Part shown: positions 18,701-39,122 of the stretch, piece after piece
Layout of the letters: each line of letters opens with the position of its first letter
Numbering within the stretch: the first letter of the stretch is position 1
Source: Neptunicoccus cionae
GTDB lineage: Bacteria > Pseudomonadota > Alphaproteobacteria > Rhodobacterales > Rhodobacteraceae
DNA: 64,000 bases
NCBI RefSeq assembly: GCF_002860325.1
Contig: NZ_PKOJ01000006.1
Coordinates: 124,001 to 188,000 of the forward strand
Reading direction: 5' to 3'
Position numbers and translations under genes: made by a program
The notes under the pieces: model-generated
The model's input: only the letters and a program-made list of their open reading frames with translations
Told to the model about the DNA's origin: nothing
Database searches by the model: none

Positions 18701-19476
18701 CCGTCTGTTGCAATCCGAACGTCTGTTGTCAGATCATCAAGTGTTCCGGCTCCTTGCACTGCCAGTTCAACCGACGGCAATCCTGGCAGGTCGAGAAGTC
18801 TCGCCGCAATGCCGCCCTCGCCCTCTTCCAACGCAATATCAAGGGTTATTTCCTGAGTAGCACCTGTGAAACCGGCAACGATCCGAAACGCCCCTTCCTG
18901 CCCGTCGATACGTTGAGCCCGCAGCTTCACATCTGCCACATTATCCGCCAATTGGGCAGATGCCTCCAGCGTCAGGGCCATTTCCGTGCCAAGCACCGCG
19001 TTGCCCAGAAAAATCTCCTGCGCCCGCAACTCGCCGACACTTACCGAAACCGGCAGTTCCGGCAGGGCAAATGGCTGGGCTTCTGCTTCCGGCAAACCGT
19101 TATCCGGAGTAACCGGCAAACGGTCCAACCGGATGACATCAGCGGCCAACAGCTCGATATCCACACTCCCGCGCAACAGGGCGCTGCGGTTCCACTGCAT
19201 CGTCAGCCCTTCCATCGTCAGCCAGATGCCGGAGTTATCGGCAATGGTGATGGAATCCATTGTCGCCGTACTGCTAAGCGCACCGCGGAATCCGGTAATC
19301 GAGACAACACGCCCTTCCCCACCGAGAGAATCCTGCAACAGTTCGGTCAGGAACCCTTTGTCGGATTCTTCCTGCTCAGTCTCTTCCGCAGGTGTTGCGT
19401 CAGTCTGCGCCAGAACAGGCACGGCAAGGAGCGTTAACAGGCAGATGAGGAATGTGCGAATGGGGCGCAAGCTCAA
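15799..19476 (-). CDS. tamB: TamB, translocation and assembly module inner-membrane-anchored protein
   Basis: 1225 residues. Long periplasm-spanning AsmA/TamB-superfamily protein thought to move phospholipids and help insert outer-membrane proteins together with TamA. N-terminal signal/anchor segment (SLRPIRTFLICLLTLLAVPVLAQ), then a very long region of short beta-strand units with alternating hydrophobic residues (beta-taco groove), and a C-terminal DUF490/TamB domain in the last about 350 residues (VSGRITAQNARLAAPELQLSL, FDLDEGSVQMQGDLDP, VTFESDPEAPEDEVLAQIFFGRD, ending SDGESTLGVFFERDY). Start codon overlaps the tamA stop by ATGA, so the pair is translationally coupled. Confidence 0.95.
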   Translation of the reverse strand: MSLRPIRTFLICLLTLLAVPVLAQTDATPAEETEQEESDKGFLTELLQDSLGGEGRVVSITGFRGALSSTATMDSITIADNSGIWLTMEGLTMQWNRSALLRGSVDIELLAADVIRLDRLPVTPDNGLPEAEAQPFALPELPVSVSVGELRAQEIFLGNAVLGTEMALTLEASAQLADNVADVKLRAQRIDGQEGAFRIVAGFTGATQEITLDIALEEGEGGIAARLLDLPGLPSVELAVQGAGTLDDLTTDVRIATDGADRLTGEIRLTSQQAALAEGAEGAEADAMAEVTRGFEADISGDITALFAPQYHDFFGNSVRLRAAGQQLPDGTLELAELDLKTNELSLEGSTTLNPEYWPTKFDLDAVLAGKSSVVLPVPGVETRVDRVALNLKYDRAAGSNWSGVFSIRELVRDGIRIGTLDLEAGGILRDDIGTLGQVTADLNLDASDFDFNDPALAQAVGNAVKGQLSLNYTEGEPLELTQMNLRTQSAVLTGEATVNSLEDAFETMLDARLVADDLSKFSGLAGQDLSGAAAVNLKGTAALGGFFDLDLSGELDNLAINQAEADKLLRGKTSFSVEAKRDETGTQLRQAKLENDQMTLAANGRLATDDAKFTYALRLEDAGMFDPRLPGPATVNGTAELDTAGWTVDLKAAGPIGAKAEVAGLVTGPQAAVEFLFSVPNINPLVPAYSGPLQVEGRAAQSDKGWRIQTEIDGPYGLDATLAGLATGETPMLTYTASLPDISPIVPKISGPVTATGTARQAGDVWQVDTGLTGPGGMRARVQGDVATDGTLDLASSGVLPLAIADRFIAPRSLNGQASFDLTVRGPADVSSVSGRITAQNARLAAPELQLSLTGIDADIGLNSGRATVSVTGGISSGGQMSVSGGVNLTGNLQADLSVALQSIVLVDPELYSTTVNGALKISGPLAGGALISGGIDLGETQIKVPTAGAVGFSIIPDIVHVSESAAVRRTRAKAGLTGSGSSGDDGAGGASSAAFGLDIRVRAPSQIFVRGRGLDAELGGRVRLTGTTANVISAGRFELIRGRLDLLTKRFDLDEGSVQMQGDLDPYIRFVATTETSTGTASIVVQGLASDPEVTFESDPEAPEDEVLAQIFFGRDISQLSPFQALQLVNAVRTLAGKGGEGVVSKLRRGLGVDDLDIVTDDEGNTSGRVGKYLSDNIYTDITAGQAGSSVSLNIDLTPSITARGSVSSDGESTLGVFFERDY

Positions 19477-21299
19477 AACGATTGTCCTATTCCAATATAA
19501 ATTTCAACGCCGCTGTTGTCCCCTGGTCCACTGACCGGAACAGCCAGATCCAGACGCAACGGGCCAAGCCCTGTGTTATACCGCAAGCCGATCCCCGCAC
19601 CCGCGTGCCAGTTCCCCGAAGTTCCGTCAGGAAAGCTTTCCCGTCCGATATATCCGGCATCATAGAACCCGACCGCAGCGATTGTGTCGGTGATCTTGTA
19701 GCGGGTTTCAGCCGAAATCCCCATGAACGAGCGGCCGCCGACGGTAACTCCGCCCCCCAGATCCACACCGAGTGACTGGTAGTTTTGACCGCGCACCGTG
19801 CCGCCACCACCCGAATAGAAAAGAAAATCACTTGGGGCTCGGGCCAGATTTGGCCCGCTGAGCGAGCTAAGCTGCCCCCGCAGGGCAAAGGTCAGCCGCT
19901 CTTCTGCGCCGACCGTCTTGTAGGCACGCATGTCAAGGGTGCCAAGCATACCGCTGTCCGTACCGCGCAACGCATAAAACGGAGTCAGTTCTGCCTTGGC
20001 GTAGTAACCCTTCTTTGCATCCAACGGATCATCGCGATAATCAAACGTGGCCGAGGCCGGTGCCATCAACAAGGCGTAGCGTCTTGGACCGAAAGCATCC
20101 GTTACATCTGCAAATCGGTACCCGAGTCCGAATGAGTACTCCCGCTTCTCGGACGCGTACCGCGTGATACCCGCACCGAGTTCGAAAGACTTTGTCGTAT
20201 AGCTTTCCTCGTTCAGACGCTCTGCTTCGCTTTCGATGTAGAAGTCCGTGTCCTCATTAAAGGTTGCCGGCCGGTCAAACCGCAGGGAAACCGTGTAATC
20301 GGTGCCGCCGGTTTCACCACCAATGCCCGAAATTTCACCGTCGACACGCAGACGTTCCGCGCCGCCAAGCAAATTGCGGTGTAGCCAGTAACCCGACAGG
20401 CCAAGTCCATCGACAGAGGATACTTCAGCCCCGAACCCGAAACGGCGCGGCGGAGATTCCACCAGTTGCGCGGTCACATCAAGGGTATTGTCGGGTCCGA
20501 TGTTCTCAGCCTCGTTCAGGGCGACGACCCGGAATGCCCCGGTACGCCGGAGCCGTGTGGAAACCAGTTTGAGTTTTTCAGGGGAAAACACATGACCGGA
20601 AGGGAAACCGGCAATATCGTGAATACGTTCCGTGCGAACGGCTTCATTTCCGCTGACCAGTAGGCGACCGAATTTCAGTTGCGGTCCGGGAGCAAGCCGG
20701 ATTCCCGCATCAATTTGCTGCTGTGCATGCCGCGCCGTTACACTTTGGCCGCCAAGCTCGGCTTTGGCATGGCCTACGGCTCTCCAGCCGGTGATGCCCG
20801 CATCAACAGTGTCTTGCAATATTCCCACCCTTGCCGGTTCGCCGGTCGCGAACTCCTCCGGCAACTCGCTTCCGGGGGCAACAGGGGCAATGTCGGCGCG
20901 ACCGAACCTGAACAGCGGGCCGTATTTGACGCGGATTTCCACATTCTCCACGGACTTGGGGGAATAGAACGGAGACAGGCTGCTGGCTTCGCGTCCGTCG
21001 ATCTTGATCTCGACCACAGGCGCGTAACGGGCTTCACCGTAAAGGGCCGTAACGATACGTTCATAATCGGCGCGGGCAGAGGCGATAATGTCCTGTACCG
21101 CCACATTTTCCCGGGATTGAAGTTCAACCAGCAGAGAAGCATTTTGCAGCGTTTCGGCAAGGTCTTCATTCTCTTGACCGACAACTATCCGCAGATCAAA
21201 GGCTTGCGCCGAAGCAGACAGCCCTAGCCCCAAACCAAACGCAAAGGCGCTGGCCCATGTGGTTGTCTTAACAAGTTCGCCCAAGGTATGCCCCGTCAC
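19473..21299 (-). CDS. tamA: TamA, Omp85-family outer-membrane assembly factor
   Basis: Outer-membrane beta-barrel partner of TamB. N-terminal signal peptide (about 20 hydrophobic residues ending SASAQA), three POTRA-like domains, and a C-terminal 16-strand Omp85 barrel with the conserved motifs SGGGGTVRGQNYQSLG and GLRYNTGLGPLRLDLAVPV (the VRGF/L-R-like lock and last strands), ending in the aromatic GIGQSF. About 608 residues from the GTG at 21299; a TTG at 21284 is an alternative with a better spaced GGGG, and the open frame reaches 21374 without a signal-peptide-like start. Overlaps tamB by ATGA. Confidence 0.93.
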   Translation of the reverse strand: MTGHTLGELVKTTTWASAFAFGLGLGLSASAQAFDLRIVVGQENEDLAETLQNASLLVELQSRENVAVQDIIASARADYERIVTALYGEARYAPVVEIKIDGREASSLSPFYSPKSVENVEIRVKYGPLFRFGRADIAPVAPGSELPEEFATGEPARVGILQDTVDAGITGWRAVGHAKAELGGQSVTARHAQQQIDAGIRLAPGPQLKFGRLLVSGNEAVRTERIHDIAGFPSGHVFSPEKLKLVSTRLRRTGAFRVVALNEAENIGPDNTLDVTAQLVESPPRRFGFGAEVSSVDGLGLSGYWLHRNLLGGAERLRVDGEISGIGGETGGTDYTVSLRFDRPATFNEDTDFYIESEAERLNEESYTTKSFELGAGITRYASEKREYSFGLGYRFADVTDAFGPRRYALLMAPASATFDYRDDPLDAKKGYYAKAELTPFYALRGTDSGMLGTLDMRAYKTVGAEERLTFALRGQLSSLSGPNLARAPSDFLFYSGGGGTVRGQNYQSLGVDLGGGVTVGGRSFMGISAETRYKITDTIAAVGFYDAGYIGRESFPDGTSGNWHAGAGIGLRYNTGLGPLRLDLAVPVSGPGDNSGVEIYIGIGQSF

Positions 21300-21529
21300 T
21301 TCAATACTGCCCCTATCTGATCTGTTATCATCGGACGATCCGTCAAGCGGCCCTCCGCCGTGCGCAAGGCACATTGGTGCGAATCTTACAGGACCGATCC
21401 GGAATGTTACACCTTATGTTTGGACTTCAAACCATCACCTTGATGTTATCCGGCTTTGGCGAAACGCAAAATTTCACGCACAACGGTGCTCTTATCAACT
21501 CTGACGTTACCCGTAGAAATCCGGCCGGT

Positions 21530-22816
21530 TCACAACCCCGTCCGGTCCCAAAGCCGGTATGCCATGACCGAGGGCGCCAGAAACCACGGGTTTCCCGAAT
21601 AGAAAGGGCGCGTTGGAAAGGGGATTTTGTTAAAGGCCGTCATACCGCGCGGGTCATCCACGGCCTGTTGCCCTATGCGCATCCCCATATAGCTGGACAT
21701 GCCAACACCCGAACCGCAATAGCCCATGGCATAGAACAGCCCGTCGTCATGCCCCGCGTGCATAAGGGTATCAAAAGTGTAACCCACCTTGCCGGTCCAG
21801 CTGTGGCTGATTTTAGTATCGGCAAGCTCGGGAAAAAGATGCACCATTTCGCGGTGCAGGCGCGGGCCGCTCACCTTCGGGTCGGCCTCTTGCAAGGACA
21901 CCCGCCCACCAAACAGAATGCGTTTGCGATCAGGGGAGCGGCGATAGTAGTAGACCAGCTTTCGACTGTCACAAATGTTGCGGTCTGTGGGCATCAAGCG
22001 GTCGATCAGCGCCTCAGGTAACTCTTCGGTTGCAATAATGTAGGAACCGATCGGGATTACCCTGCGCTGCTGCCACGGCGTTATGCCCCCCGTATACCCG
22101 TTGGTGGCAAGAACGACACGTGCAGCCTCAACTGGCCCCTTCAGCGTGGAGAGCAAAAACCCCCCGTTTTGCCGTTTGATCCCTGTCACCGCACAGTGGG
22201 AATGAACCTCTGCCCCCGCCGCGCGGGCCACCCCCAGCAGCCCCTTGTGATACAAGGCAGGATGCAGATTGGCATGCCGGGGAAAGACCATGCCGCCGTG
22301 ATAGGCCTTGGTGCCCAGTTCAGCGGGCATTTCCGCTTCAGGCACTATATAAGCGCCGGAATTCTGATAGCGGCCCGCGGCAACACTGCTAACCATTTTT
22401 TTGTAATGGCGGGGGCTATGGGCACCATCGAACCTTCCCGCCACTTTGAAATGGCACTCGATGCCTTCGTCGCGAATGAACTGTTCTACATAATCGCGCG
22501 AGGCTTGTCCCTCTTGCACGATACCCTCTGCAATCTCTTGCCCGTAGCGTTTGGTAAGTTCAGCCAGCCCGAACTTCACAGAAGTGGAAATCTGTCCGCC
22601 GTTTCGCGTGCTTGCCCCGAACCCGAGCGCTTCGGCCTCCAGCACCACGGTGGAGCGCCCTGCCCGCGCGGATTGGACCGCCGCTTGCAGACCGGTATAG
22701 CCAGATCCGATAATCGCGATATCGACCTTCGTGCGGGGTAAATCTCCTTGGGTGCGCTCTGCTATCGGGGCAGCCTCCCACCAGTAGGGTGTCTCTTTGA
22801 AATCATCTGTAAACAT
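21530..22816 (-). CDS. FAD-dependent oxidoreductase of the DAO family (PuuB-like)
   Basis: 428 residues. FAD-binding Rossmann motif near the N-terminus (DIAIIGSGYTGLQAA, about 32-46) followed by the family motif GFGASTRNGGQ. Overall length and these motifs match gamma-glutamylputrescine oxidase and related amine oxidases that deaminate polyamine derivatives. The N-terminal SYWWE-like element (TPYWWEAAP) is also typical of PuuB relatives. Last gene of the apparent potD-A-B-C/GMC operon, 27 bp after the GMC gene, so its substrate is probably taken up by that transporter. Glycine or sarcosine-type substrates remain possible. Confidence 0.88.
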   Translation of the reverse strand: MFTDDFKETPYWWEAAPIAERTQGDLPRTKVDIAIIGSGYTGLQAAVQSARAGRSTVVLEAEALGFGASTRNGGQISTSVKFGLAELTKRYGQEIAEGIVQEGQASRDYVEQFIRDEGIECHFKVAGRFDGAHSPRHYKKMVSSVAAGRYQNSGAYIVPEAEMPAELGTKAYHGGMVFPRHANLHPALYHKGLLGVARAAGAEVHSHCAVTGIKRQNGGFLLSTLKGPVEAARVVLATNGYTGGITPWQQRRVIPIGSYIIATEELPEALIDRLMPTDRNICDSRKLVYYYRRSPDRKRILFGGRVSLQEADPKVSGPRLHREMVHLFPELADTKISHSWTGKVGYTFDTLMHAGHDDGLFYAMGYCGSGVGMSSYMGMRIGQQAVDDPRGMTAFNKIPFPTRPFYSGNPWFLAPSVMAYRLWDRTGL

Positions 22817-22843
22817 GGCTACACCGCCTTTTTATTACCGGTC

Positions 22844-24460
22844 TCAGATATGGTCCTGCAAAATCAGGTCCGCACCTTTTTCCCCGACCATAATAGCAGG
22901 TGCGTTGGTATTGCCTGACGTCACAGTGGGAAAAATCGAGGCGTCCACCACCCGCAGCCCTTCGATCCCGTGCAGTTTCAGTCGCGCATCTACCACGTCG
23001 GTTTTCGCGTCCGGCCCCATCTTGCAGGTGCCGACAGGATGAAACACCGTGCCGACCTTTTCGCGGATGTATTCAATAAAGGCGGCATCGTCTTGCGCCT
23101 GTGGTCCGGGCGCGATTTCAGATTCGATGATTTCCTGAAAAGCGGGCGCGGCAGCCAGCTTGCGCATAAAATGGATGCCTTCCAGCATTTCCTGCATGTC
23201 GAGTTCGGTGGACAGATAGTTCGGATGGATTTCAGGGGCTTGCGCCGGATCGGCCGAGCGGATTGCCAGATGCCCGCGACTGGTCGGGTGCATCGGCTGG
23301 GTGCCCAGCAGGAAACCGGCGAAGGGATCGGGGTTCATCAGCGGCCGCTTGCCCGGAGGCGCCTTCGTGTAGCTGACCGGCGAAAAAAACACCTGCATGT
23401 TGGGACGGTCCAGACTCGGACGGGACCGGATAAACCCGCCCCCCTGATTAACCCCGAGCGATAGCGGACCGCCCCGCGTCAGCACATAGCGCATACCTTG
23501 CAGCAGTTTGCCGTGCCATGAATGAAGCTGGTTGTTCAGCGTCGGCACTTTTGAGCGGTAGAGGAAATCAATCCCGAGATGATCTTGCAGGTTCTGCCCC
23601 ACTCCGCCCACGTCCCTGACCACCTCAATACCTTTGGATTTCAGCAGTTCCGCAGGGCCAACCCCTGAAAGTTGCAGCAGTTGGGGCGAGTTGATCGCGC
23701 CTGCCGAAAGGATCACTTCCCGCGCGGCAAAGGCTTGTTTGACCTTTCCGTTCTGGCTGTATTCCACGCCGACAGCGCGGCCGTTCTCAAACAACACCCG
23801 CTGCGCCAGCGCACGTTTTTCCACCCGCAGGTTGCGCCGCTTGCGGGCGGGGCGGATGTAGGCTCGCGCCGTGGACATGCGCATCCCGCCGCGCGCAGTG
23901 TTCTGATAGGTGCCCAGCCCTTCCTGACTGGCGCCGTTGAAATCGGCGTTACGCGGTATCTGGATCTGTTCGCCGGCTGTGATGTAGTTCTGGCAGATCG
24001 GATGCAGAAACCGGTCCATGGTCCCAACATGCAACGGACCGGAATCGCCGCGAAAGTCGCAGCCGCCCCGATCGTTGGTTTCCGCTTTCTTGAAATAGGG
24101 CAGCACATCGTCCCAGCCCCAGCCCGGATTGCCCATGTCCTTCCAGCCGTCGAAATCCTGCGCCTGCCCGCGAATATAGACCATCGCGTTAATGGAACTG
24201 GACCCGCCCATAACCTTGCCGCGCGGCCAGTAGGACACGCGGTTGTTCAGCTCCGGATTGGGCTCCGTCTCATACATCCAGTTGACGCTGCGCTTATAGA
24301 AGGTCTTGCCATAGCCGATGGGCAGCCAGATCCAGAAATTCAGATCACTGCCACCGGCTTCCAGAAGCATCACCTTAAATTTTCCGTTCTCGCTCAGCCG
24401 GTTGGCCAGCACGCAGCCCGCAGACCCTGCGCCCACGATGATAAAATCCACCTGTTCCAT
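22844..24460 (-). CDS. GMC family oxidoreductase (choline dehydrogenase-like)
   Basis: 538 residues. FAD-dependent alcohol dehydrogenase/oxidase. N-terminal FAD motif DFIIVGAGSAGCVLANRLSE (GxGxxG at 10-15), the GMC signature 1 region GKVMGGSSSINAMVYIRG, signature 2 GAINSPQLLQLSGVGP, and the C-terminal catalytic His in TVFHPVGTCKMG with SGNTNAPA. Length is close to BetA (about 550), but GMC enzymes oxidise many alcohols and no betaine aldehyde dehydrogenase or BetI lies nearby, so choline is not assured. ATG at 24460 with AGGGAAG upstream; 17 bp after the permease gene, so co-transcribed with the importer. Confidence 0.9.
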   Translation of the reverse strand: MEQVDFIIVGAGSAGCVLANRLSENGKFKVMLLEAGGSDLNFWIWLPIGYGKTFYKRSVNWMYETEPNPELNNRVSYWPRGKVMGGSSSINAMVYIRGQAQDFDGWKDMGNPGWGWDDVLPYFKKAETNDRGGCDFRGDSGPLHVGTMDRFLHPICQNYITAGEQIQIPRNADFNGASQEGLGTYQNTARGGMRMSTARAYIRPARKRRNLRVEKRALAQRVLFENGRAVGVEYSQNGKVKQAFAAREVILSAGAINSPQLLQLSGVGPAELLKSKGIEVVRDVGGVGQNLQDHLGIDFLYRSKVPTLNNQLHSWHGKLLQGMRYVLTRGGPLSLGVNQGGGFIRSRPSLDRPNMQVFFSPVSYTKAPPGKRPLMNPDPFAGFLLGTQPMHPTSRGHLAIRSADPAQAPEIHPNYLSTELDMQEMLEGIHFMRKLAAAPAFQEIIESEIAPGPQAQDDAAFIEYIREKVGTVFHPVGTCKMGPDAKTDVVDARLKLHGIEGLRVVDASIFPTVTSGNTNAPAIMVGEKGADLILQDHI

Positions 24461-24477
24461 TCGTGACTTCCCTAACT

Positions 24478-25335
24478 TCAGGACTTGGGGTCGCGCTGGA
24501 TCACGACGCTGATCAATGCCAGCAAACCGGACCCGACGATCAGGAAGAATGACACAGCATTCAACACAGGGGTAGAGCCGACTTTGGCCATCCGGTCATA
24601 CATCGTAATTGTCAGCGGCGATTCCGATCCAACTAGGAACAGTGTGGTGTTGAAATTTTCAAACGATACCAGAAAAGCGACAATCCCTGCCGCTATCATC
24701 GCAGGGCGCAGGAAAGGCAGTGTCACAGTGCGCAACACCTGCGCACGGCTCGCCCCTAGGTTCAGGGCCGCTTCCTCAAGTGACGTGTCGAATTTCTTCA
24801 AACGTGCCGTGATCACCAGCGAGGTGATGGTGGTCACGAAACTGAACTGGCCAAAGACGACGAGCAGGATTCCGGGCCGCAGGAATTCCAGTTCCAGATT
24901 GAACCGGTCCTCCACCCCGTTGGCGATATTGCTGGCCATGACCAGAATGGAAATCCCAAGGATCACGCCCGGAATAACCAGCGGCAGGATCATCAGGATG
25001 TAAAAGAAGTTCTTGGCCGGAAAATTTCCCCGAACAAACAGGAACGCATTGGTGGTGCCGACGAACACCGACAGCAGCGATACCATCACGCCGATTACGC
25101 CGGAATAATACAGCCCCCGCAAAAGGCGACGGTCGTGGAACATACCGAGTTTGGGCTCGCTGTCATTAAAGAACCAGTCGAGCGTGAACCCCTGCCACGG
25201 CAGCGCCGGAAACAGCGAGTCGTTAAACGCAAAGCTGCCTGCCGCCACCAATGGAGCCGCCAGAAAGATAAAGAACGCCGCCATGTAAGCGCGATAGCCC
25301 AGCAGGAAGGCCTGATTTTTGGTTGATGATGCCAT
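24478..25335 (-). CDS. spermidine/putrescine-type ABC transporter permease (PotC-like)
   Basis: 285 residues from the ATG at 25335, chosen because GGAGGG sits 7 bases upstream; the frame is open ten codons further. Six predicted helices and the BPD_transp_1 coupling loop (FDTSLEEAALNLGASRAQVLRTVTLPFLRP), with the EAA motif intact. Second permease subunit. The PotC-like features and the neighbouring PotA-, PotB- and PotD-like genes point to a polyamine-class importer; the family also carries opines and other cationic amines. Confidence 0.92.
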   Translation of the reverse strand: MASSTKNQAFLLGYRAYMAAFFIFLAAPLVAAGSFAFNDSLFPALPWQGFTLDWFFNDSEPKLGMFHDRRLLRGLYYSGVIGVMVSLLSVFVGTTNAFLFVRGNFPAKNFFYILMILPLVIPGVILGISILVMASNIANGVEDRFNLELEFLRPGILLVVFGQFSFVTTITSLVITARLKKFDTSLEEAALNLGASRAQVLRTVTLPFLRPAMIAAGIVAFLVSFENFNTTLFLVGSESPLTITMYDRMAKVGSTPVLNAVSFFLIVGSGLLALISVVIQRDPKS

Positions 25336-25351
25336 GTCCGATCCCTCCCCT

Positions 25352-26218
25352 TCAGCTTTTCGCAACAGTGTTGGCCAGCGTCTGCCCTGTCAGGCGCAAA
25401 CCGATCCACACAACGATCGAGGTAAAGGCCAGCAGCAAAAAGCCAAAGGCCGCGCCGCTCTCCCAGTTGAAGCGGGTGATGAACTGGTCGTAGATCTGTT
25501 CGGTAAACCAGCTTGAATTCTTACCGCCCAACAGGATCGGCGTCAGATAGCTGCCCGCTGTCATCATGAAGACCACGATACAGCCCGACACGATGCCGGG
25601 CATGGCATAGGGCACGATGATACGGCGCAGCACGGTGAACCCGTTGCCTCCCAGATTATACCCCGCCTCGATCATGGCGTTGTCCATCCCATCAAGGGTT
25701 GAGACAAGCGGCACAATCATGAACAGGATCACGGTATAAACCAGCCCGATAACGACCGTGATGTCATTGTAGAGAAACTCTATCGGCTGGTCGATCAGGC
25801 CGATATCCGTCAGAAAACTTGAAATTACGCCGGTTTCCCGCAGCAACAGAATCCAGCCGAAAGCGCGGATCAGATCGCTGACCCACAAAGGGATCAGGCA
25901 CAACAAAAACAGCGCCCCACGGGACCGTTTGCCTGCGATTTTGGCAATGTAATAGGCGATGGGAAAGCCGATCAGCAGCGCCAGAAACGTTACCAGAATA
26001 GACATGGAGCCGGTGCGCAGCAGCGTGTTCCAGTAGATCGGCTCGTTTATGAAATCAATGTAATTGCCAAAACCGAACTCATAGACCCGCGGCGCTACTT
26101 TTTCCCGCAAAGACAGCACAACCATCCCCATATGAGGCAGGATAATCAGCAAGGCGATCCACAGCGCGAAGGGTGCGAACAGCAGGATCAGCGAAAGGCG
26201 TTTGATGTCAGATTGCAT
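25352..26218 (-). CDS. spermidine/putrescine-type ABC transporter permease (PotB-like)
   Basis: 288 residues from the ATG at 26218 (GGGGG four bases upstream); the open frame begins at 26263 inside the ATPase gene. N-terminal helix followed by the periplasmic loop typical of PotB (LREKVAPRVYEFGFGNYIDFI), then five more helices with coupling loop MDNAMIEAGYNLGGNGFTVLRRIIVPYAMPG. It pairs with the PotC-like permease encoded 16 bp downstream. Confidence 0.92.
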   Translation of the reverse strand: MQSDIKRLSLILLFAPFALWIALLIILPHMGMVVLSLREKVAPRVYEFGFGNYIDFINEPIYWNTLLRTGSMSILVTFLALLIGFPIAYYIAKIAGKRSRGALFLLCLIPLWVSDLIRAFGWILLLRETGVISSFLTDIGLIDQPIEFLYNDITVVIGLVYTVILFMIVPLVSTLDGMDNAMIEAGYNLGGNGFTVLRRIIVPYAMPGIVSGCIVVFMMTAGSYLTPILLGGKNSSWFTEQIYDQFITRFNWESGAAFGFLLLAFTSIVVWIGLRLTGQTLANTVAKS

Positions 26219-26226
26219 ATCGCCCC

Positions 26227-27357
26227 CTAAACCGCAAAACACATGGTTTGCGCGGCGGACCATTCGAGCGTGACATCATCACCGGCCCGCAAATCCTCTG
26301 TCCCGCCGGTGACAACCACATCTGCCTCGATCAGTTCCCCTACAGGGTCGCGCACCAATACGCGGCTGTTGGCACCGTTGAACAGAACGGAATCCACACG
26401 GCCCTGCAGCGTGTTTTGCGCGGTACTGCTGCCCTCAGAGGATGTCTTGCGGGCTGTGATAAACTCGGGGCGCACAAAGATCGAAACGTCCTTGCCGGAG
26501 CTGATCCCCTGCCCCACGGCCCGCGCACTGGTCATCACCAGCCCTGCCTCGGTTTCCACGCGGTATTCTCCGCCTTCCTGTGCCGTGACCCGACCGGACC
26601 AACGGTTGGAATCCCCGACAAAGCCCGCAACAAATGACGTTTGCGGATTGTGATAAAGGTCTTCGGGCCGGCCGATCTGTTCAAAGCGGCCCTCGTTCAT
26701 AATGGCGACGTGATCGGACATAACCAGCGCTTCGGACTGGTCGTGAGTGATATAGATAAAGGTGGTGTTGAACTGGTGTTGCAGCAGTTTCAGTTCGATT
26801 TTCATCGCCTCGCGCAGTTTCAGGTCAAGCGCGCCAAGCGGTTCGTCCAGCAACAGCACATCAGGGTCCATTACCATACAGCGGGCAATCGCGATCCGCT
26901 GCTTCTGGCCGCCTGAAAGCTGGTGGATTTCGCGATCTGCCACATCCGGCAGCGCGATCCTTTCAAGCACATCCTTCACCTTGCGGTCGATTTCGGCCTT
27001 GTCTGTCCCGATGCAGCGTAATCCGTAGGCGATGTTTTCATATACGTTCATCATCGGAAACAGCGCAAGGTGCTGGAACACCATCTTCACGTTCCGCTTG
27101 TTGGGCGGCGTGTTCAGAACCGATTTCCCCTTGATCTGGATATCGCCGGAGGTGGGATCTTCGAAACCTGCAATCATCCGCATCAAGGTCGTCTTGCCAC
27201 AGCCCGACGGCCCGAGGATCGAAAAGAAAGACCCTTTGGGAATTTTGAACGACACATCATCCACAGCGCGCACAGCCCCGAACGATTTGTGGATATTGCT
27301 GCATTCCAGATCGAATGCAGGTTCAAGGGCCGGATCGGTCAGTGTGGCAGTGTTCAT
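26227..27357 (-). CDS. spermidine/putrescine-type ABC transporter ATP-binding protein (PotA-like)
   Basis: 376 residues. ATPase of the importer: Walker [25 protein letters not shown] (Q-loop and the FPHM-like region of PotA), signature LSGGQKQR, Walker [13 protein letters not shown], switch His THDQSEAL, and a C-terminal TOBE_2 domain (about 290-376). It energises transport through the PotB/PotC-like pair. It lies 100 bp after the binding-protein gene, with a strong terminator between, so its expression is probably lower than that of the binding protein. Confidence 0.94.
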
Positions 27358-27410
27358 TCGGGAATCCGTTTTGTCAGTGTCGTAGGAAAAAGGCGCCTGC
27401 TGGCAGATAG

Positions 27411-27441
27411 AAAAAGGGCGGCGTCATGTTGAACGCCGCCC
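27411..27441 (-). terminator. Rho-independent terminator after the PotD-like gene
   Basis: Perfect 9-bp stem GGGCGGCGT / ACGCCGCCC with an 8-nt loop, followed on the minus strand by five T residues. It starts 17 bp past the binding-protein stop, so it probably acts as a partial terminator within the transporter operon. Confidence 0.8.
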
Positions 27442-27457
27442 CATCTGATGGAATCGT

Positions 27458-28534
27458 TTAGCCGCCTGTGGCCGCTTTGATTTTCTCAAGTGTCTTGCCT
27501 TCCATGTCCTCGACACCGGCGGGGATGTTGGCAAAGAACTTCAGATTGGCAATATCTGCGTCGGTAAAGGCCGCTGTCACCGCTTCACGCTTGTCTTCGG
27601 GCAGCAGGTCCAGCCCGCCTTTGACAGCGGCAATCGCGCCGGTGCTGCCGGACATGATTGTTACGTTTTCAGGTTCCAGCACAAAGTTGATCCACTTGTA
27701 GGCTGCATCATCCGCCTTGCCCTTGCGGGGCAGCGCAAATGTGTCGATCCAGGCCAGCGCACCTGTTTCCGGTGGCACAAACACGATGTCCTTGTTCTGA
27801 CCATAGAGTTTATAGGCTGTGGAATCCCATGTTTCAGAGGCCACAATCTCACCCGACAGCATCATGGCGGACAGATCGTCGCCGCCCTTCCAATAGGCTT
27901 TGATGTTGGATTTACATTCGATCAGTTTTTCGGCCACTTCATCCAGAATCTGCTGGTATTTATCCAGATCGGAATAGGCGGCAAACGGATCGTGCCCCAT
28001 TGAAAACGCGGTGCCGAGCAGAATGGTCCGCTTCAGACGCATGGAGGTTTTGCCTTCATACTTCGGATCACACAGATCACCCCAGCCCTTGAAATCCGGC
28101 GCAACGGATTTGTTCGCCATCAGGCCAGAGGTGCCCCACTGATGCGGAACCGCATAAACTTCACCGTCAATGGTGGTGTTGGCCTTCACACCCTCCAGAT
28201 GGGAGGTCTCCATAACGGAGGTGTCGATCTTGGACAGATCCAGCGGTTTGTAGATGTCGTATTCCATCTGCGCTGCGTGAATACGGTCGTGGCTTGGCTG
28301 TGCAAGGTCAAAGCCCGCGCCGCCGGTGGCCCGCAGCTTGGCGATCATTTCCTCGTTGTTGGAAAAGGTCACTTCCACATCAATATCGGGATAGCGTTCC
28401 TCGAATTTTTGCACCAGCTCCTCGGGCGCATAAGACCCCCAAGTCAGCAGACGCAGTGTTTCGGCATGTGCGAAAGAAGCCGTAGACAGCAGCAGCGCCG
28501 CCATCAGACCCGTGATTTTTGTTTTATGTTTCAT
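27458..28534 (-). CDS. polyamine-type ABC transporter substrate-binding protein (PotD-like)
   Basis: 358 residues. Periplasmic binding protein with a classical signal peptide (KHKTKITGLMAALLLSTASFAHA, about 24 residues). The mature N-terminus LRLLTWGSYAPEELVQKFEERYPDIDVEV is the standard opening of the PotD/PotF family, and the ligand pocket lobe (YAVPHQWGTSGLMAN) is conserved. First gene of the importer operon. A 46-bp inverted repeat at 28605-28650 lies 71 bp upstream of its ATG and matches one near the adjacent MocR gene. Confidence 0.92.
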   Translation of the reverse strand: MKHKTKITGLMAALLLSTASFAHAETLRLLTWGSYAPEELVQKFEERYPDIDVEVTFSNNEEMIAKLRATGGAGFDLAQPSHDRIHAAQMEYDIYKPLDLSKIDTSVMETSHLEGVKANTTIDGEVYAVPHQWGTSGLMANKSVAPDFKGWGDLCDPKYEGKTSMRLKRTILLGTAFSMGHDPFAAYSDLDKYQQILDEVAEKLIECKSNIKAYWKGGDDLSAMMLSGEIVASETWDSTAYKLYGQNKDIVFVPPETGALAWIDTFALPRKGKADDAAYKWINFVLEPENVTIMSGSTGAIAAVKGGLDLLPEDKREAVTAAFTDADIANLKFFANIPAGVEDMEGKTLEKIKAATGG

Positions 28535-28604
28535 AATGTACTCCCTGAAGTATCAACGCGGCAGCGTCGGGTTCTAGTCAGTCGCACTTGAACCTTAGAA
28601 AGGC

Positions 28605-28650
28605 ATTGGACTGCGACTCATATCCATTGCGGAATTCTTATCAGACCAAT
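28605..28650. promoter_or_regulatory. inverted-repeat element upstream of the PotD-like gene, candidate MocR operator
   Basis: Half-sites ATTGGACT (28605-28612) and AGACCAAT (28643-28650, reverse complement ATTGGTCT) span exactly 46 bp. The same span and half-site occur at 30157-30202 upstream of the MocR gene. It lies in the 127-bp gap before the binding-protein gene, at a distance suitable for a promoter-proximal operator. Confidence 0.55.
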
Positions 28651-28661
28651 TTGTAACAGGA

Positions 28662-30143
28662 TTATATATCCAGCGCGGGCAATCCAGACAAAAGTTTAAG
28701 CCCTGACTGAATATCGTCGGGCTTCGCACTGCCAAATCCAAGCACAAGGGCATTCTGCTCAACAGGGGCGAGACAATAGCGCGACAGCGGGGCTGTGATG
28801 ACGTTGCGTTCAGCGGCCTGAGCGACCAGTCGGGCTGTATCCACGCGCGGGTCGAGATAGGCTGTCGTGTGAAATCCGCTGCGGGTCGGCTGGATCTTAA
28901 TTGACGGCGGCAGCGCCTGAGCGGCCTGCATCAGCACATCATATCGGGCCTTGTATAGCCTTCGCATCATGCGGATGTGAGTAGCGAACTGGCCCTCGTC
29001 CATGAAATCCGAAACAACCGCTTGCGTTGCCGTGGACGGGCCGCTGATCCAGCTTGTGAACACCCGATCGAACACCGGCACCAGACTGTCGGGCGACAGA
29101 ATAAAACCCAGCCGGATAGAGGGGAACAGGGTTTTGGAGAACGTCCCCACATAGATCACACGGTCCTGCGTATCTATGCTTTTCAGCGCAGGTTGCACCC
29201 GTTCCGAGAAATGGAACTCGCCGTCATAATCATCCTCGACAATCATCGCATTGGCGGCCCGCGCCGCATCCAGCAGCGCCAGACGCCGCTGAAGGGACAT
29301 GACATGGCCAAGGGGCTGCTGGTGGGAGGGTGTGACAAAAGCTAGCCGGAAATCCGGCGCAAATTGTAAACCCTGCTCCACATCCAGCCCGTCCCCGTCT
29401 ACCGGCACCGGCACCAGTTGCGCCCCGTTCGCCACCAGTGCATTGCCTGCACCAATGGCACCCGGGTTTTCGTACCAGACACGATCACCACTATTCAGCA
29501 GAACACGCCCGAGGATCGAAAACGCCTGTTGCGCCCCGCCGGTAATGAAAATTTGCTCCGGTCTGCACTTGATCCCGCGCGCCGCGTTAAGGTGGCTGGC
29601 GATAGACCGGCGCAACCGATCCAGCCCCTGTGGCGGGCCATAGCCCATGATTTCGTCCCGATTACCCCGCAGGTGGCGTGCCGATATCCGCGCCCAATGG
29701 GCCATTGGAAACGCCTCCAGCGCGGGGAGTGCGGTAATGAAAGCCTGACTTTTATGAGGAAGCCGCTGGCGTGGAGCAAAATTGTCCAGCGCCACGGAAA
29801 AGCGCTGTGATAGTATTGGTTCGGCCAAAACATCCTGAGGCGCATCCGGCCGATCCGCTCCGGTTAGCGGCTGGGCAAGCACGTCGCTCACATAGGTTCC
29901 TGCGCCCACGCGGGACACCAGCATCCCTTCGGACACCAGCCGGTCTATGGCGTCAATCACCGTAGTACGCGAGACACCGATCTCTTTGGCCAGCGTACGG
30001 CTGGCCGGAAGCCGCCTGCCCGCGCCAAGACCACCCGTCAGTATAATCTCGCGCAGGGCCATATAAAGCTGCACACTAATCTTGCGGTCCGATCCCCGTT
30101 CGATCCGGATGGAGGAGAGCAAGGCTCCGGCCTGTTGCTTCAC
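28662..30143 (-). CDS. MocR/GabR-type regulator: GntR helix-turn-helix fused to a class I aminotransferase domain
   Basis: 493 residues from the GTG at 30143, which has AAGGGGG six bases upstream. N-terminal winged helix of the GntR type (about 15-85; ISVQLYMALREIILTGGLGAGRRLPASRTLAKEIGVSRTTV) followed by a linker and a PLP-binding fold type I domain with the Schiff-base lysine in GTFSKTLFP (Lys337). Such proteins sense PLP plus an amine or amino acid and switch a neighbouring catabolic operon. It sits between the PotD-like operon and a divergent enolase-superfamily gene, and both flanks carry the same 46-bp inverted repeat. Ligand unknown; a polyamine or related amine is a reasonable guess. 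Confidence 0.92.
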   Translation of the reverse strand: MKQQAGALLSSIRIERGSDRKISVQLYMALREIILTGGLGAGRRLPASRTLAKEIGVSRTTVIDAIDRLVSEGMLVSRVGAGTYVSDVLAQPLTGADRPDAPQDVLAEPILSQRFSVALDNFAPRQRLPHKSQAFITALPALEAFPMAHWARISARHLRGNRDEIMGYGPPQGLDRLRRSIASHLNAARGIKCRPEQIFITGGAQQAFSILGRVLLNSGDRVWYENPGAIGAGNALVANGAQLVPVPVDGDGLDVEQGLQFAPDFRLAFVTPSHQQPLGHVMSLQRRLALLDAARAANAMIVEDDYDGEFHFSERVQPALKSIDTQDRVIYVGTFSKTLFPSIRLGFILSPDSLVPVFDRVFTSWISGPSTATQAVVSDFMDEGQFATHIRMMRRLYKARYDVLMQAAQALPPSIKIQPTRSGFHTTAYLDPRVDTARLVAQAAERNVITAPLSRYCLAPVEQNALVLGFGSAKPDDIQSGLKLLSGLPALDI

Positions 30144-30156
30144 TGTGCACCCCCTT

Positions 30157-30202
30157 ATTGGACCGCTACTATTGTCGGAATGGACCTACTGTAAGGTCCA
30201 AT
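30157..30202. promoter_or_regulatory. perfect inverted repeat in the MocR/enolase divergent promoter, candidate MocR operator
   Basis: Perfect 8-bp arms ATTGGACC (30157-30164) and GGTCCAAT (30195-30202), total span 46 bp. An extra half-site, TGGACC at 30181-30186, lies 22 bp (two helical turns) after the first TGGACC in direct orientation. The left arm ends close to the ribosome binding site of the MocR gene, which fits autoregulation. Confidence 0.6.
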
Positions 30203-30260
30203 TTCTTTTATGGTCAACGCCAAAGATTTCAGACCTGCCCAGCCTACCGGAGCCTCCCTT

Positions 30261-31367
30261 ATGAAGATCAAATCCATCGAAACCTTCAGCACGGAATTCG
30301 TCAGCTTTACCCGTGTGACGACTGACACAGGTGCGCAGGGCTGGGGTCAGGTCGCGCCTTATTATGCGGATATCACAGCACAAGTGCTGCACCGGCAGGT
30401 GGCACCCTATGCGCTGGGCAAGGATGCCTATGACGTTGATGGCATTCTGGATTTCGTGCGGGACCGCGAACATAAATTTCCCGGTTCCTACCTGCGCCGC
30501 GCCATGGGCGGGCTGGATACAGCACTTTGGGATTTACGCGGCAAGGTCGAGGGCAAACCGGTTTGCACCCTATTGGGCGGCAGCCCTGGTGAATTCCGCG
30601 CCTACGGGTCGTCCATGAAGCGGGATATAACACCCAAGGATGAGGCAGACCGGCTGGTCCGGCTGCGCGATGAAAAGGGCTTTGACGCCTTCAAATTCCG
30701 CATTGGCGCGGAAGTGGGCCGCGACCGCGACGAATGGGACGGCCGCACCGAAGAAATCGTCCCCACCATGCGCCGCGCCATGGGCGATGATGTGGCGCTG
30801 CTGGTTGATGCCAATTCCTGCTATTCCCCAAAGCGGGCGATTGAGGTTGGCAAGATTCTGATCGACAACGGAATTTCCCATTACGAGGAACCCTGCCCCT
30901 ATTGGGAATTTGCGCAGACCAAGGAAGTGACCGACGCGCTGGATCTGGACATCACAGGGGGGGAGCAGGACTGTATGATGGCCAACTGGCAGCAGATGAT
31001 TGACGGGCGGATCGTGGATATTGTGCAGCCGGATGTGCTCTACCTCGGTGGTATGTCCCGCACGATGCGGGTTGCAAAAATGGCTGCGGATGCGGGGATT
31101 CCGGTCACCCCTCATGCGGCCAACCTGTCGCTGGTCACGCTGTTCACCATGCACCTGTTGCGGGCCATTCCCAATGCGGGCAAATATCTGGAGTTTTCCA
31201 TCGAGGGGCTGGACTACTACCCGTGGCAGGACAAGCTGTTCACCCACGATCCCTATGAGATCCGAGATGGCAAGGCCACTGTGACAGACGCGCCCGGATG
31301 GGGAATCGAGATCAATCCCGAATGGCTCTACAAGGCAGAGTATCGCAAGTCCGAACTGGAGGGATGA
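30261..31367 (+). CDS. enolase-superfamily enzyme of the mandelate racemase/muconate lactonizing group
   Basis: 368 residues from the ATG at 30261 (GGAG nine bases upstream; the frame is open 17 codons further). N-terminal capping domain and C-terminal TIM barrel. Visible active-site elements: FKFR (a K-x-R in place of the usual K-x-K), DANSCYS for the first metal ligand, HYEEPCPYW for the second, GGEQDC for the third, and the QPDVL plus TPHAA pair forming a His-Asp dyad. This places it in the mandelate racemase subgroup of acid-sugar dehydratases/racemases; the substrate cannot be named. Divergent from the MocR gene and probably controlled by it. Confidence 0.88.
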   Translation: MKIKSIETFSTEFVSFTRVTTDTGAQGWGQVAPYYADITAQVLHRQVAPYALGKDAYDVDGILDFVRDREHKFPGSYLRRAMGGLDTALWDLRGKVEGKPVCTLLGGSPGEFRAYGSSMKRDITPKDEADRLVRLRDEKGFDAFKFRIGAEVGRDRDEWDGRTEEIVPTMRRAMGDDVALLVDANSCYSPKRAIEVGKILIDNGISHYEEPCPYWEFAQTKEVTDALDLDITGGEQDCMMANWQQMIDGRIVDIVQPDVLYLGGMSRTMRVAKMAADAGIPVTPHAANLSLVTLFTMHLLRAIPNAGKYLEFSIEGLDYYPWQDKLFTHDPYEIRDGKATVTDAPGWGIEINPEWLYKAEYRKSELEG

Positions 31368-31385: not shown

Positions 31386-31865
31386 TCATTCCCACGGCGG
31401 AACGTAAAAAGACGTCTTGATCTGATCCATCACCACTGTGGTTTTGAACCCTTTGATGTCCGGATTGTCATAAAGAAACGTGCGGGTGAAGCCTTCGTAC
31501 TCCTTGATGTCCCTTGCGCTGATGATCAGCACAAAATCGCTGTCGCCGGTGACGTAATAGGCGCTCATCACGATGGGTTCCGCCCGCACGGCCTTTTTGA
31601 AATGGTCGATAATGTCAGAGCGGTCCCTTTCAAGCTGCACCGAGACAATCATAGTTAGCGTGCGCCCCACTTCGGCGCCGGAAATGATCGAGATATCGCC
31701 CTTGATCACCTTTTCCTTGCGCAGCCGGTTCAACCGGCGCTGGGCAGAGGTCGGGGACAGGCCGATCCGCTCGGCAAGCTGAGTCGAGGTAAGCTGGTTG
31801 TTCTGCTGCACCTCATGCAGAATTTTGCGATCAAAATCATCCAATGCGGGGGGTTTGGCAGCCAT
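31386..31865 (-). CDS. Lrp/AsnC family transcriptional regulator
   Basis: 159 residues from the ATG at 31865 (AAGGA nine bases upstream). N-terminal winged helix-turn-helix (LDDFDRKILHEVQQNNQLTSTQLAERIGLSPTSAQRRLNRL, about 7-47) and C-terminal RAM/ligand-binding domain (about 70-150; SAYYVTGDSDFVLII). It is transcribed divergently from the class III aminotransferase gene across a 103-bp gap, the usual layout for an Lrp-type regulator and its amino-acid or amine catabolism target. The ligand is not visible. Confidence 0.93.
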   Translation of the reverse strand: MAAKPPALDDFDRKILHEVQQNNQLTSTQLAERIGLSPTSAQRRLNRLRKEKVIKGDISIISGAEVGRTLTMIVSVQLERDRSDIIDHFKKAVRAEPIVMSAYYVTGDSDFVLIISARDIKEYEGFTRTFLYDNPDIKGFKTTVVMDQIKTSFYVPPWE

Positions 31866-31968
31866 TCGATCAATCCTTGCATAAATTAGGCGCAAACGTA
31901 ACAGATTTGCATCGTTTCGTCACGGCTCGTTGATATGCTGCGCGCAACACACAAGAAAGGGCGTAACT

Positions 31969-33339
31969 ATGCTGAACAATGACCAACTGGCCGAATGGGA
32001 TCGCGAGAATTTCTTCCATCCCTCCACACATCTGGCGCAACATGCGCGGGGGGAAACCCCGACACGGGTTATCAGCAGCGGTGACGGCGTCCATATCACC
32101 GATCGCGATGGTCGTCGGATGCTGGATGCTTTTGCCGGGCTTTACTGCGTGAATGTTGGCTACGGGCGCACTGAAATTGCCGAGGCGATTGCCAAACAAG
32201 CCCATGAACTGGCCTATTACCATTCCTATGTGGGCCACGGCACCGAAGCCTCGATCACACTGGCCAAGATGATTCTGGACCGCGCTCCAGACAATATGTC
32301 GAAAGTCTATTTCGGGCAAAGCGGTTCTGATGCGAACGAGACCAACATCAAACTGGTCTGGTATTACAACAATATCCTTGGTCGCCCTGAAAAGAAAAAG
32401 ATCATTTCGCGCTGGCGCGGTTATCACGGCTCCGGCCTGATGACAGGCTCGCTGACGGGGCTGGAACTGTTCCACAATAAATTCGACCTGCCCCTGTCCC
32501 AAGTCATCCACACAGAGGCGCCCTATTATCTGCGCCGCAAGGATACCGCGATGACACCGGCAGAGTTTGCGGCTGATTGCGCTGCTAAACTGGAAGAGCT
32601 GATCCTTGCCGAAGGCCCAGACACCGTCGCCGCCTTTATCGGTGAGCCTGTGCTTGGCACCGGCGGCATCGTACCCCCGCCCGAAGGCTACTGGGAGGCG
32701 ATTCAGGCTGTTCTGAAGAAATACGACATTCTGTTGATCGCGGACGAAGTCGTCACCGGCTTCGGGCGTCTTGGCAGCATGTTCGGGTCGGACCACTACG
32801 GGATTGAAGCAGATATCATCACCATCGCCAAAGGTCTGACATCGGCCTATGCGCCGCTGTCCGGTTCGATAGTGTCGGACAAAGTCTGGAAAGTGCTGGA
32901 AAACGGCACCGACGAAAACGGACCTATCGGCCACGGCTGGACCTATTCCGCCCACCCGATTGGTGCGGCTGCCGGTGTGGCCAACCTCAAACTGATCGAC
33001 GAACTGGGTCTGGTGGAGAATTCAGGCAAAACCGGCCCTTATTTGAAGAAAGCGCTAAGCGACGCACTGGCGGATCACCCTAATGTAGCTGAAGTGCGCG
33101 GCGAAGGTCTTATGTGCGCCGTCGAATTCGCCGACACAAAAGAACCGCTCGGATTTTTTGACGCCTCCCGCAAGATCGGACCGTCGATTTCCGCCGCTAT
33201 GGCCAGCCGCGATGTGATTGCCCGAGCCATGCCGCAGGGCGACATCATCGGCTTTGCTCCGCCGCTGTGCATCACGCAGGCTGAAGTGGATCATGTGGTC
33301 GGTGTCACAGTGGAAGCCGTTAAGGAAGTTCTGGGGTAA
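31969..33339 (+). CDS. class III PLP aminotransferase (omega-amino acid/putrescine-pyruvate type)
   Basis: 456 residues from the ATG at 31969 (AAAGGG upstream; the frame is open 13 codons further). Fold type I aminotransferase with the PLP lysine in TIAKGLTSAY (Lys288), the D-E-V metal-free binding motif LLIADEVVTGFGRLG, and the family glycines RWRGYHGSGLMTGSLTG. The overall pattern (HPSTHLAQHARGETPTRVI start, YHSYVGHGTEASITLA) resembles omega-transaminases and SpuC-like putrescine-pyruvate aminotransferases of marine alphaproteobacteria. Given the polyamine-type importer and PuuB-like oxidase nearby, a role in amine catabolism is likely, but beta-alanine or taurine-type substrates are possible. 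Confidence 0.9.
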   Translation: MLNNDQLAEWDRENFFHPSTHLAQHARGETPTRVISSGDGVHITDRDGRRMLDAFAGLYCVNVGYGRTEIAEAIAKQAHELAYYHSYVGHGTEASITLAKMILDRAPDNMSKVYFGQSGSDANETNIKLVWYYNNILGRPEKKKIISRWRGYHGSGLMTGSLTGLELFHNKFDLPLSQVIHTEAPYYLRRKDTAMTPAEFAADCAAKLEELILAEGPDTVAAFIGEPVLGTGGIVPPPEGYWEAIQAVLKKYDILLIADEVVTGFGRLGSMFGSDHYGIEADIITIAKGLTSAYAPLSGSIVSDKVWKVLENGTDENGPIGHGWTYSAHPIGAAAGVANLKLIDELGLVENSGKTGPYLKKALSDALADHPNVAEVRGEGLMCAVEFADTKEPLGFFDASRKIGPSISAAMASRDVIARAMPQGDIIGFAPPLCITQAEVDHVVGVTVEAVKEVLG

Positions 33340-38828: not shown

Positions 38829-39018
38829 TCCTTTCCAATTCTGCCTGAACAAGACCCCGCATTTATTATGTGACCAGCGCCAAAGCGTCACGCCTGCTTG
38901 AATTTTAAACCTTTCGATACGAAATCAATTTAAAGAACGAACCGCCGGATACAGACTCGCCTCTGCGTGATCCGGTTCTGCGGGTTTGATGCACCGGACC
39001 ACCTGATCGGGCGGAATA

Positions 39019-39047
39019 TTCCAATTCCGGCAAAAATCTGCTACACT
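39019..39047 (+). promoter_or_regulatory. candidate sigma-70-type promoter for the repeat-rich envelope protein
   Basis: TTCCAA at 39019-39024 and TACACT at 39042-39047 with exactly 17 bp between. It lies 76 bp before the chosen start. The -35 element is weak, so this is a candidate only. Confidence 0.3.
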
Positions 39048-39122
39048 AAGGGCTTAGCCCACCAAAACTGTAGCAATAGATGCCTTTGGTGGTATATCCG
39101 CGCTGTGGATAGAGAGAACTTT

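Follow-up and report, generated by a model that had tools for sequence, protein, structure and literature searches.

Two three-box repeats flanking a mocR gene of Neptunicoccus cionae as predicted operators of a regulon for uptake and catabolism

Two 46-bp repeats flank the gene of a MocR-type regulator in the window, the 64,000-nucleotide stretch of Neptunicoccus cionae DNA analysed here. Dozens of related bacteria preserve them strictly, which points to regulator binding sites, and we predict, with a probability of about 0.93, that both are operators of the regulator encoded between them. The regulator probably switches on genes for uptake and breakdown. A sequence-only reading of the window had predicted that one MocR protein controls transport, oxidation and an enolase-superfamily enzyme, and comparison strongly supports this prediction, based on an operator that is rigidly conserved across 66 loci, stands before pathway genes and co-occurs with mocR and not with the target genes. 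The predicted regulon is precise and genome-wide for a MocR group of many marine alphaproteobacteria; it links solved enolase-superfamily structures to a transporter and two flavin oxidases, and it provides a clean operator for the use of direct versus inverted boxes by a MocR dimer.

The repeats and the genes they face

The regulator gene (28662-30143, minus strand) has a GTG start and encodes 493 residues that form an N-terminal GntR-type winged helix-turn-helix and a class I aminotransferase-like domain. Divergent from it lies the gene of an enolase-superfamily (MR_MLE) enzyme of 368 residues (30261-31367, plus strand), which most likely starts at ATG 30261 rather than at the open-frame start 30210, since relatives and solved structures align from the first residue of the ATG start. 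On the other side of mocR, the minus strand carries a closely packed gene run that encodes a solute-binding protein resembling PotD/PotF (27458-28534), a PotA-like ATPase (26227-27357), a PotB-like permease (25352-26263), a PotC-like permease (24478-25365), a choline dehydrogenase-like GMC oxidoreductase (22844-24460) and a DAO-family FAD-dependent oxidoreductase (21530-22816). Directly beyond the DAO gene are genes of the TamB and Omp85 families (15799-21374). The enolase-superfamily gene is followed by genes for an Lrp/AsnC regulator and a class III aminotransferase (31386-33339), high-identity copies of which occur in only two of the 66 loci (L044 and L045). An open frame of 947 residues at 38967-41810 had no match in a Pfam search at E up to 1e-5.

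Both of the 46-bp inverted repeats with a shared half-site that the earlier reading had described are present, as ATTGGACT...AGACCAAT at 28605-28650 and as ATTGGACC...GGTCCAAT at 30157-30202. An extra TGGACC, noted 22 bp into the latter, is indeed a third box, B2, but it is not peculiar to that site because the 28605 site also has a B2 when read on the minus strand. With a third box in both sites, the plain inverted repeat was abandoned and replaced by a three-box operator that is oriented to the structural genes. The common architecture is B1-N14-B2-N8-B3, in which a direct pair B1/B2, 22 bp apart, is joined by an inverted B3 within 46 bp overall. The operator O1 (30157-30202, plus strand) reads ATTGGACC-N14-AATGGACC-N8-GGTCCAAT, with B1 at 30157-30164, B2 at 30179-30186 and B3 at 30195-30202; it faces the enolase-superfamily gene and overlaps the predicted mocR promoter. 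The operator O2 (28605-28650) reads ATTGGTCT-N14-AATGGATA-N8-AGTCCAAT on the minus strand from 28650 to 28605, with B1 at 28643-28650, B2 at 28621-28628 and B3 at 28605-28612; it faces potD and was found by both pattern and profile.

The frequency of the half-site ATTGGWCY is uninformative by itself, with nine occurrences in the window and 7.99 expected. When two half-sites are paired over a 46-bp span, the genome of 4,286,347 bases has the two window sites and no others; a reversed control pattern had no match. The exact three-box pattern is likewise confined to the two places, with one further place at one mismatch. A profile of sequence only (R1), built from 54 of the 65 mocR-upstream sites of other species and leaving out L044, L045, L060, L062, L068 and duplicate sites, matched at full length twice in the genome (E 4.5e-5 and 1.4e-4), followed by a 23-base partial match at E 0.61. 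Given just two full-length matches, the regulon of this genome appears to comprise mocR, the enolase-superfamily gene and the pot-GMC-DAO operon.

Conservation of the operator and its association with mocR

Named genomes were searched with an alignment built from five orthologues, and of the 174 relatives obtained the best 80 were kept. The locus set consists of the 66 loci (L044-L109) with at least 48% identity to the window regulator, mostly from Rhodobacterales, Stappia/Roseibium types and Rhizobiaceae, with a few betaproteobacteria; the other 14 (31-41%) served as outgroup. A weight matrix was derived from the best site upstream of mocR, for which 62 of the 66 loci qualified, with 56 distinct sites that include the L044 site and three Roseovarius-type sites with a degraded B2. 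Because each training site was the top-scoring match in the roughly 150 bp before mocR, there is a selection bias, against which shuffled sequences, non-orthologous MocR loci, mocR-less genomes and downstream sites were used as controls. In the window, the two sites scored 44.3 and 38.6, and the next matches 12.2 (overlapping the first) and 7.2, while ten shuffled windows had top scores ranging from -7.9 to 13.3. The potD-side site was absent from the training set. O1 is identical to the L044 training site and its matrix score is therefore not independent; the profile R1, which was made without L044 and L045, recovers both window sites.

Across the 66 loci (1.33 Mb), sites scoring at least 20 were found 65 times upstream of mocR, 59 times in the gap after mocR and 12 times elsewhere, so that an upstream site is present in 65 of the 66 loci and a second, downstream one in 59. 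At this threshold no downstream site was seen in seven loci (L059, L063, L070, L098, L099, L101, L102). The 59 downstream sites precede potD (35), the DAO gene (16), a second enolase-superfamily gene (5) or the GMC gene (1); the other two have no clear assignment, one being at a contig end (L060) and one having a potC remnant and GMC (L096). Among the 12 sites elsewhere, the next gene is GMC in five cases (L049, L054, L067, L073, L081) and DAO in four (L054, L073, L075, L105); two sites (L059, L095) precede genes that were judged by eye to resemble those of solute-binding proteins, and the site in L101 lies about 215 bp before a potD match, where the script offered another frame. Flavimaribacter sediminis has two regulator orthologues (L059 and L092; 63% and 61% identity), each with an upstream operator.

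The conservation is concentrated in the boxes. The 15 core positions have a mean pairwise identity of 0.916 and 0.947, compared with 0.41-0.48 for the spacers and 0.27-0.30 for the flanks. When B1-B2 distances of 21-23 and spans of 45-48 were scanned, with a half-point penalty on spacings other than 22 and 46, the latter were chosen in 62 of 65 loci; in L069 and L078 the choice differs from the later matrix site. With spacing fixed at 22/46, the matrix recovers a mocR-upstream site in 65 of the 66 loci, and 61 of these 65 have a divergent enolase-superfamily gene. The boxes stand at helical-turn spacing, a trait of MocR-subfamily operators. In the 14 outgroup loci no site scored above 13.1, and among seven loci with 38-44% regulator identity (L008-L014) one site scored 20.0 and the others at most 5.2; the predicted operator fades below about 48% regulator identity.

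This pattern bears on the possibility that the repeats arose by chance or that the B2-B3 half of O1, with the T run that follows it, is a transcription terminator. A terminator-like stem does exist at 30181-30200. The scan count is close to the shuffle mean (two found, 1.3 expected), the sequence itself is conserved and not just its pairing, and in 65 of 66 loci the sites stand before genes. The terminator was rejected for these reasons, and the probability left to it, chance repeats included, is practically nil.

The operator is also distributed among genomes like the regulator. With matches at E up to 1e-140 taken as mocR and at E up to 1e-120 as the enolase-superfamily gene, the regulator is present in 13 of 394 genomes of the family. 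Eighteen of these genomes contain the exact pattern, at 26 places in all: 19 places in 11 of the 13 mocR-bearing genomes and seven places in seven of the 381 others (Fisher test, p 3e-15), compared with one match of the reversed control pattern in all 394 (G112). The seven exact matches in mocR-less genomes have matrix scores of -4.4 to 15.8, and the 17 non-window sites of mocR-bearing genomes scores of 29.9 to 51.5. The two mocR-bearing genomes that have no exact match carry sites scoring 33.1 and 21.8 (L041, L043). In two genomes (G183, G410) a site lies off the contig of mocR, and both of these sites precede the same second enolase-superfamily gene (L131, L138), which elsewhere adjoins mocR and follows such a site.

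The first enolase-superfamily gene is more widespread than the regulator; it was found in 93 of the 394 genomes, 80 of which have no regulator. Only two of these 80 contain an exact match (G033, G210), in both cases on a contig other than that of the enolase-superfamily gene. In 20 genomes sampled from the 80, no site was found beside this gene within about 1.6 kb around its start (best score -5.8). The GMC gene adjoins the enolase-superfamily gene in 15 of these 20 (L162-L181), and the two enzymes may therefore act together. In one locus (L163; genome 86% complete) the enolase-superfamily gene and a potD gene of 88% identity are divergent, and the gap separating them contains no mocR and no site. 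The genome distribution, together with the site-less enolase loci that lack mocR, argues that the operator tracks the regulator rather than the target genes. This association weakens the case for another binder of the repeats, such as the Lrp/AsnC-family protein that is encoded next door (31386-31895). Near matches to it (97%) occur in just two of the 66 loci (L044, L045), and three others reach 28-29%. Because of this rarity and because the operator follows mocR, an Lrp-type binder was rejected and is regarded as very improbable.

Promoter register and a proposed switch

TAnnnT starts exactly 53 bases after the operator start at 58 of 59 distinct downstream sites; in the exception (L094) the operator is 47 bp long and TAnnnT lies one base later. 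In the window this position is occupied by TAAGGT (28592-28597, minus strand), the probable -10 of the pot operon. On the enolase side TAnnnT stands at +52 in 33 of the 60 distinct upstream sites. The window has TATGGT at this position (30209-30214, plus strand), the probable -10 of the enolase-superfamily gene. No TTGACA-like -35 was seen in the 59 downstream promoters (mean matches 1.39-1.88 of 6 at spacers of 15-19, baseline 1.6). With a -10 in fixed register and no consensus -35, these promoters look activator-dependent, which suggests that the regulator activates them. On the enolase side two spacings give a mild likeness to TTGACA (2.2-2.35 of 6, baseline 1.48), so that a weak -35 is possible there. 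A candidate mocR promoter at 30188-30217 on the minus strand consists of TTGACC (30217-30212), an 18-bp spacer and TACAGT (30193-30188); it is defined by its consensus match only (9 of 12 positions), and two such sites occur in the scanned 1.8 kb where 1.1 are expected. Since its -10 lies between B2 and B3 of O1, binding of MocR should repress mocR, and from this overlap we infer autoregulation.

Transcription generally starts about 7 bases after a -10. With such a start, the centres of B1 and B2 would fall near -61 and -39, at a distance of two helical turns, and that of B3 near -23, roughly half a turn away from the face of B1-B2. In the mechanism that we propose, a head-to-tail MocR dimer would take B1 and B2 on this one face of the DNA and would activate the promoters in which the -10 is in fixed register and a consensus -35 is absent. 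B3, placed between the positions of the -35 and the -10, would serve a resting or repressing state, and occupation of B2-B3 would cover the mocR -10 and cause autorepression. An inducer, probably the substrate of the pathway or a product of this substrate, would act through the PLP pocket, and the switch may lie in a change from one kind of box pair, direct or inverted, to the other. As described in the main text of PMC5320631, MocR proteins are often divergent from the target gene that they activate and repress their own synthesis, the GabR dimer is head-to-tail, and apo-PdxR prefers direct repeats whereas PLP-bound PdxR favours inverted ones.

The account as a whole, i.e. operators, activation from B1-B2, a resting state at B3, autorepression, an inducer and catabolism of an amine, is considered likely. 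Counted against it are the enolase-side -10, which is in register in just 33 of 60 sites, the mild TTGACA likeness on that side, the 7 of 66 loci that have no downstream site and the fading of the site below about 48% regulator identity. A more specific formulation remains tentative: a two-state promoter switch, with B1-B2 for activation, an inverted pair including B3 for the resting state and autorepression, and the -10 locked to the operator, would govern a previously undescribed catabolic pathway with two enolase-superfamily enzymes, a GMC and a DAO oxidoreductase.

The same operators and the same regulator could also be explained if MocR were a pure repressor of all units, relieved by the substrate. 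The location of B3 between the -35 and -10 positions and the possible weak -35 on the enolase side would suit such a repressor, and EnuR, of the MocR/GabR type, is called a repressor (PMC8739950). Arguing against pure repression are the 59 downstream promoters, which lack a recognisable -35 as activator-dependent promoters do, and the position of B1-B2 upstream of the core promoter. We consider pure repression rather unlikely.

A hint at the proposed exchange of direct and inverted pairs comes from three Roseovarius-type loci (L060, L062, L068), in which B2 of the mocR-side site is degraded (AACCGTAG, AACCGTTA and AATTACTG) and the cores of B1 and B3 are perfect. The enolase-superfamily gene of these loci is not divergent and points in the same direction as mocR, and B2 is perfect in 57 of the 61 loci with a divergent enolase-superfamily gene. 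This variation would fit the switch. The three losses probably represent one event, and L070, which has no divergent enolase-superfamily gene and retains B2, counts against the hint. The absence of the -10 in L060, L062 and L068 says little because 27 of 60 divergent sites likewise have no TAnnnT at +52.

Pathway, regulator identity and related systems

The GMC, DAO and enolase-superfamily enzymes recur across the loci. The same operator fronts two different ABC systems, depending on the species: potDABC close to that of the window (part of 21530-28534) or the type of L049 (11585-20467), an ABC system of low identity that has a solute-binding protein of its own and an EutQ-like cupin. The regulon probably serves the uptake and oxidative breakdown of a compound that probably contains nitrogen; that the substrate is a hydroxylated amine is a guess. 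The enolase-superfamily enzyme has close relatives with solved structures, 3t8q, 3tcs, 3u4f and 3t9p (593-647 bits, next best 133), and a literature search on these four entries gave no title of relevance.

The regulator matches PF00392 and PF00155 above the cut-offs, which is the MocR architecture, and K337 in TFSKTLFPS, presumably the PLP-binding lysine, is invariant in five orthologues. Among the NCBIfam models the rhizopine MocR model NF052281 gave the top score, 433 bits, without reaching its cut-off of 650. The PdxR model was exceeded with 394 bits (cut-off 320), which would favour a regulator of PLP synthesis with the neighbouring genes being incidental. The genome has just two sites, and the genes examined behind sites belong to transport, oxidases and the enolase superfamily, with no gene of PLP biosynthesis or salvage among them. 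The PdxR assignment is not supported by a regulon of this composition; it was rejected and is given a very low likelihood. The automatic PdxR annotation is probably misleading for this regulator group.

A MocR regulator of catabolic genes has several relatives among known systems. Among the papers listed by literature searches, none dealt with this gene set, judged by title and abstract opening. The box order is already known, since two direct boxes followed by an inverted one form the commonest class of MocR operators (Suvorova and Rodionov 2016, PMC5320631). The window operators resemble this class, as presented in the main text, in box order, a TGG-containing box, a divergent target and box distances of helical turns, and they differ in their own box, ATTGGNCY/AATGGAYM, and in the 22/46-bp spacing. 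The main text of PMC5320631 contains no mention of potD, enolase, mandelate, choline or spermidine, and the regulator group may already be listed in its supplement.

GabR of Bacillus subtilis is alike in its domains, chain 4n0b matching residues 21-485 of the regulator with 174 bits; it differs in controlling GABA genes and in its box sequence, as given in PMC5320631. The rhizopine MocR resembles the window system in its divergent inducible promoter and in 11-bp direct repeats 13 bp apart, which amount to a 24-bp period, but according to PMC10107442 its box is AAAGYGGYTCT, mocR is reported to be constitutive and the target genes are others. EnuR/EutR, the ectoine regulator of a marine Rhodobacterales species, is likewise of the MocR/GabR type and belongs to a catabolic cluster; in the description of PMC8739950 it acts as a repressor at a short palindrome, ATTGT-N6-ACAAT, over the core promoter. 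TauR of Rhodobacter capsulatus is an alphaproteobacterial MocR activator whose direct-repeat box CTGGACYTAA resembles B2 AATGGACCTA (PMC5320631, main text). It controls taurine genes, whereas the targets examined at sites of the window type belong to other families.
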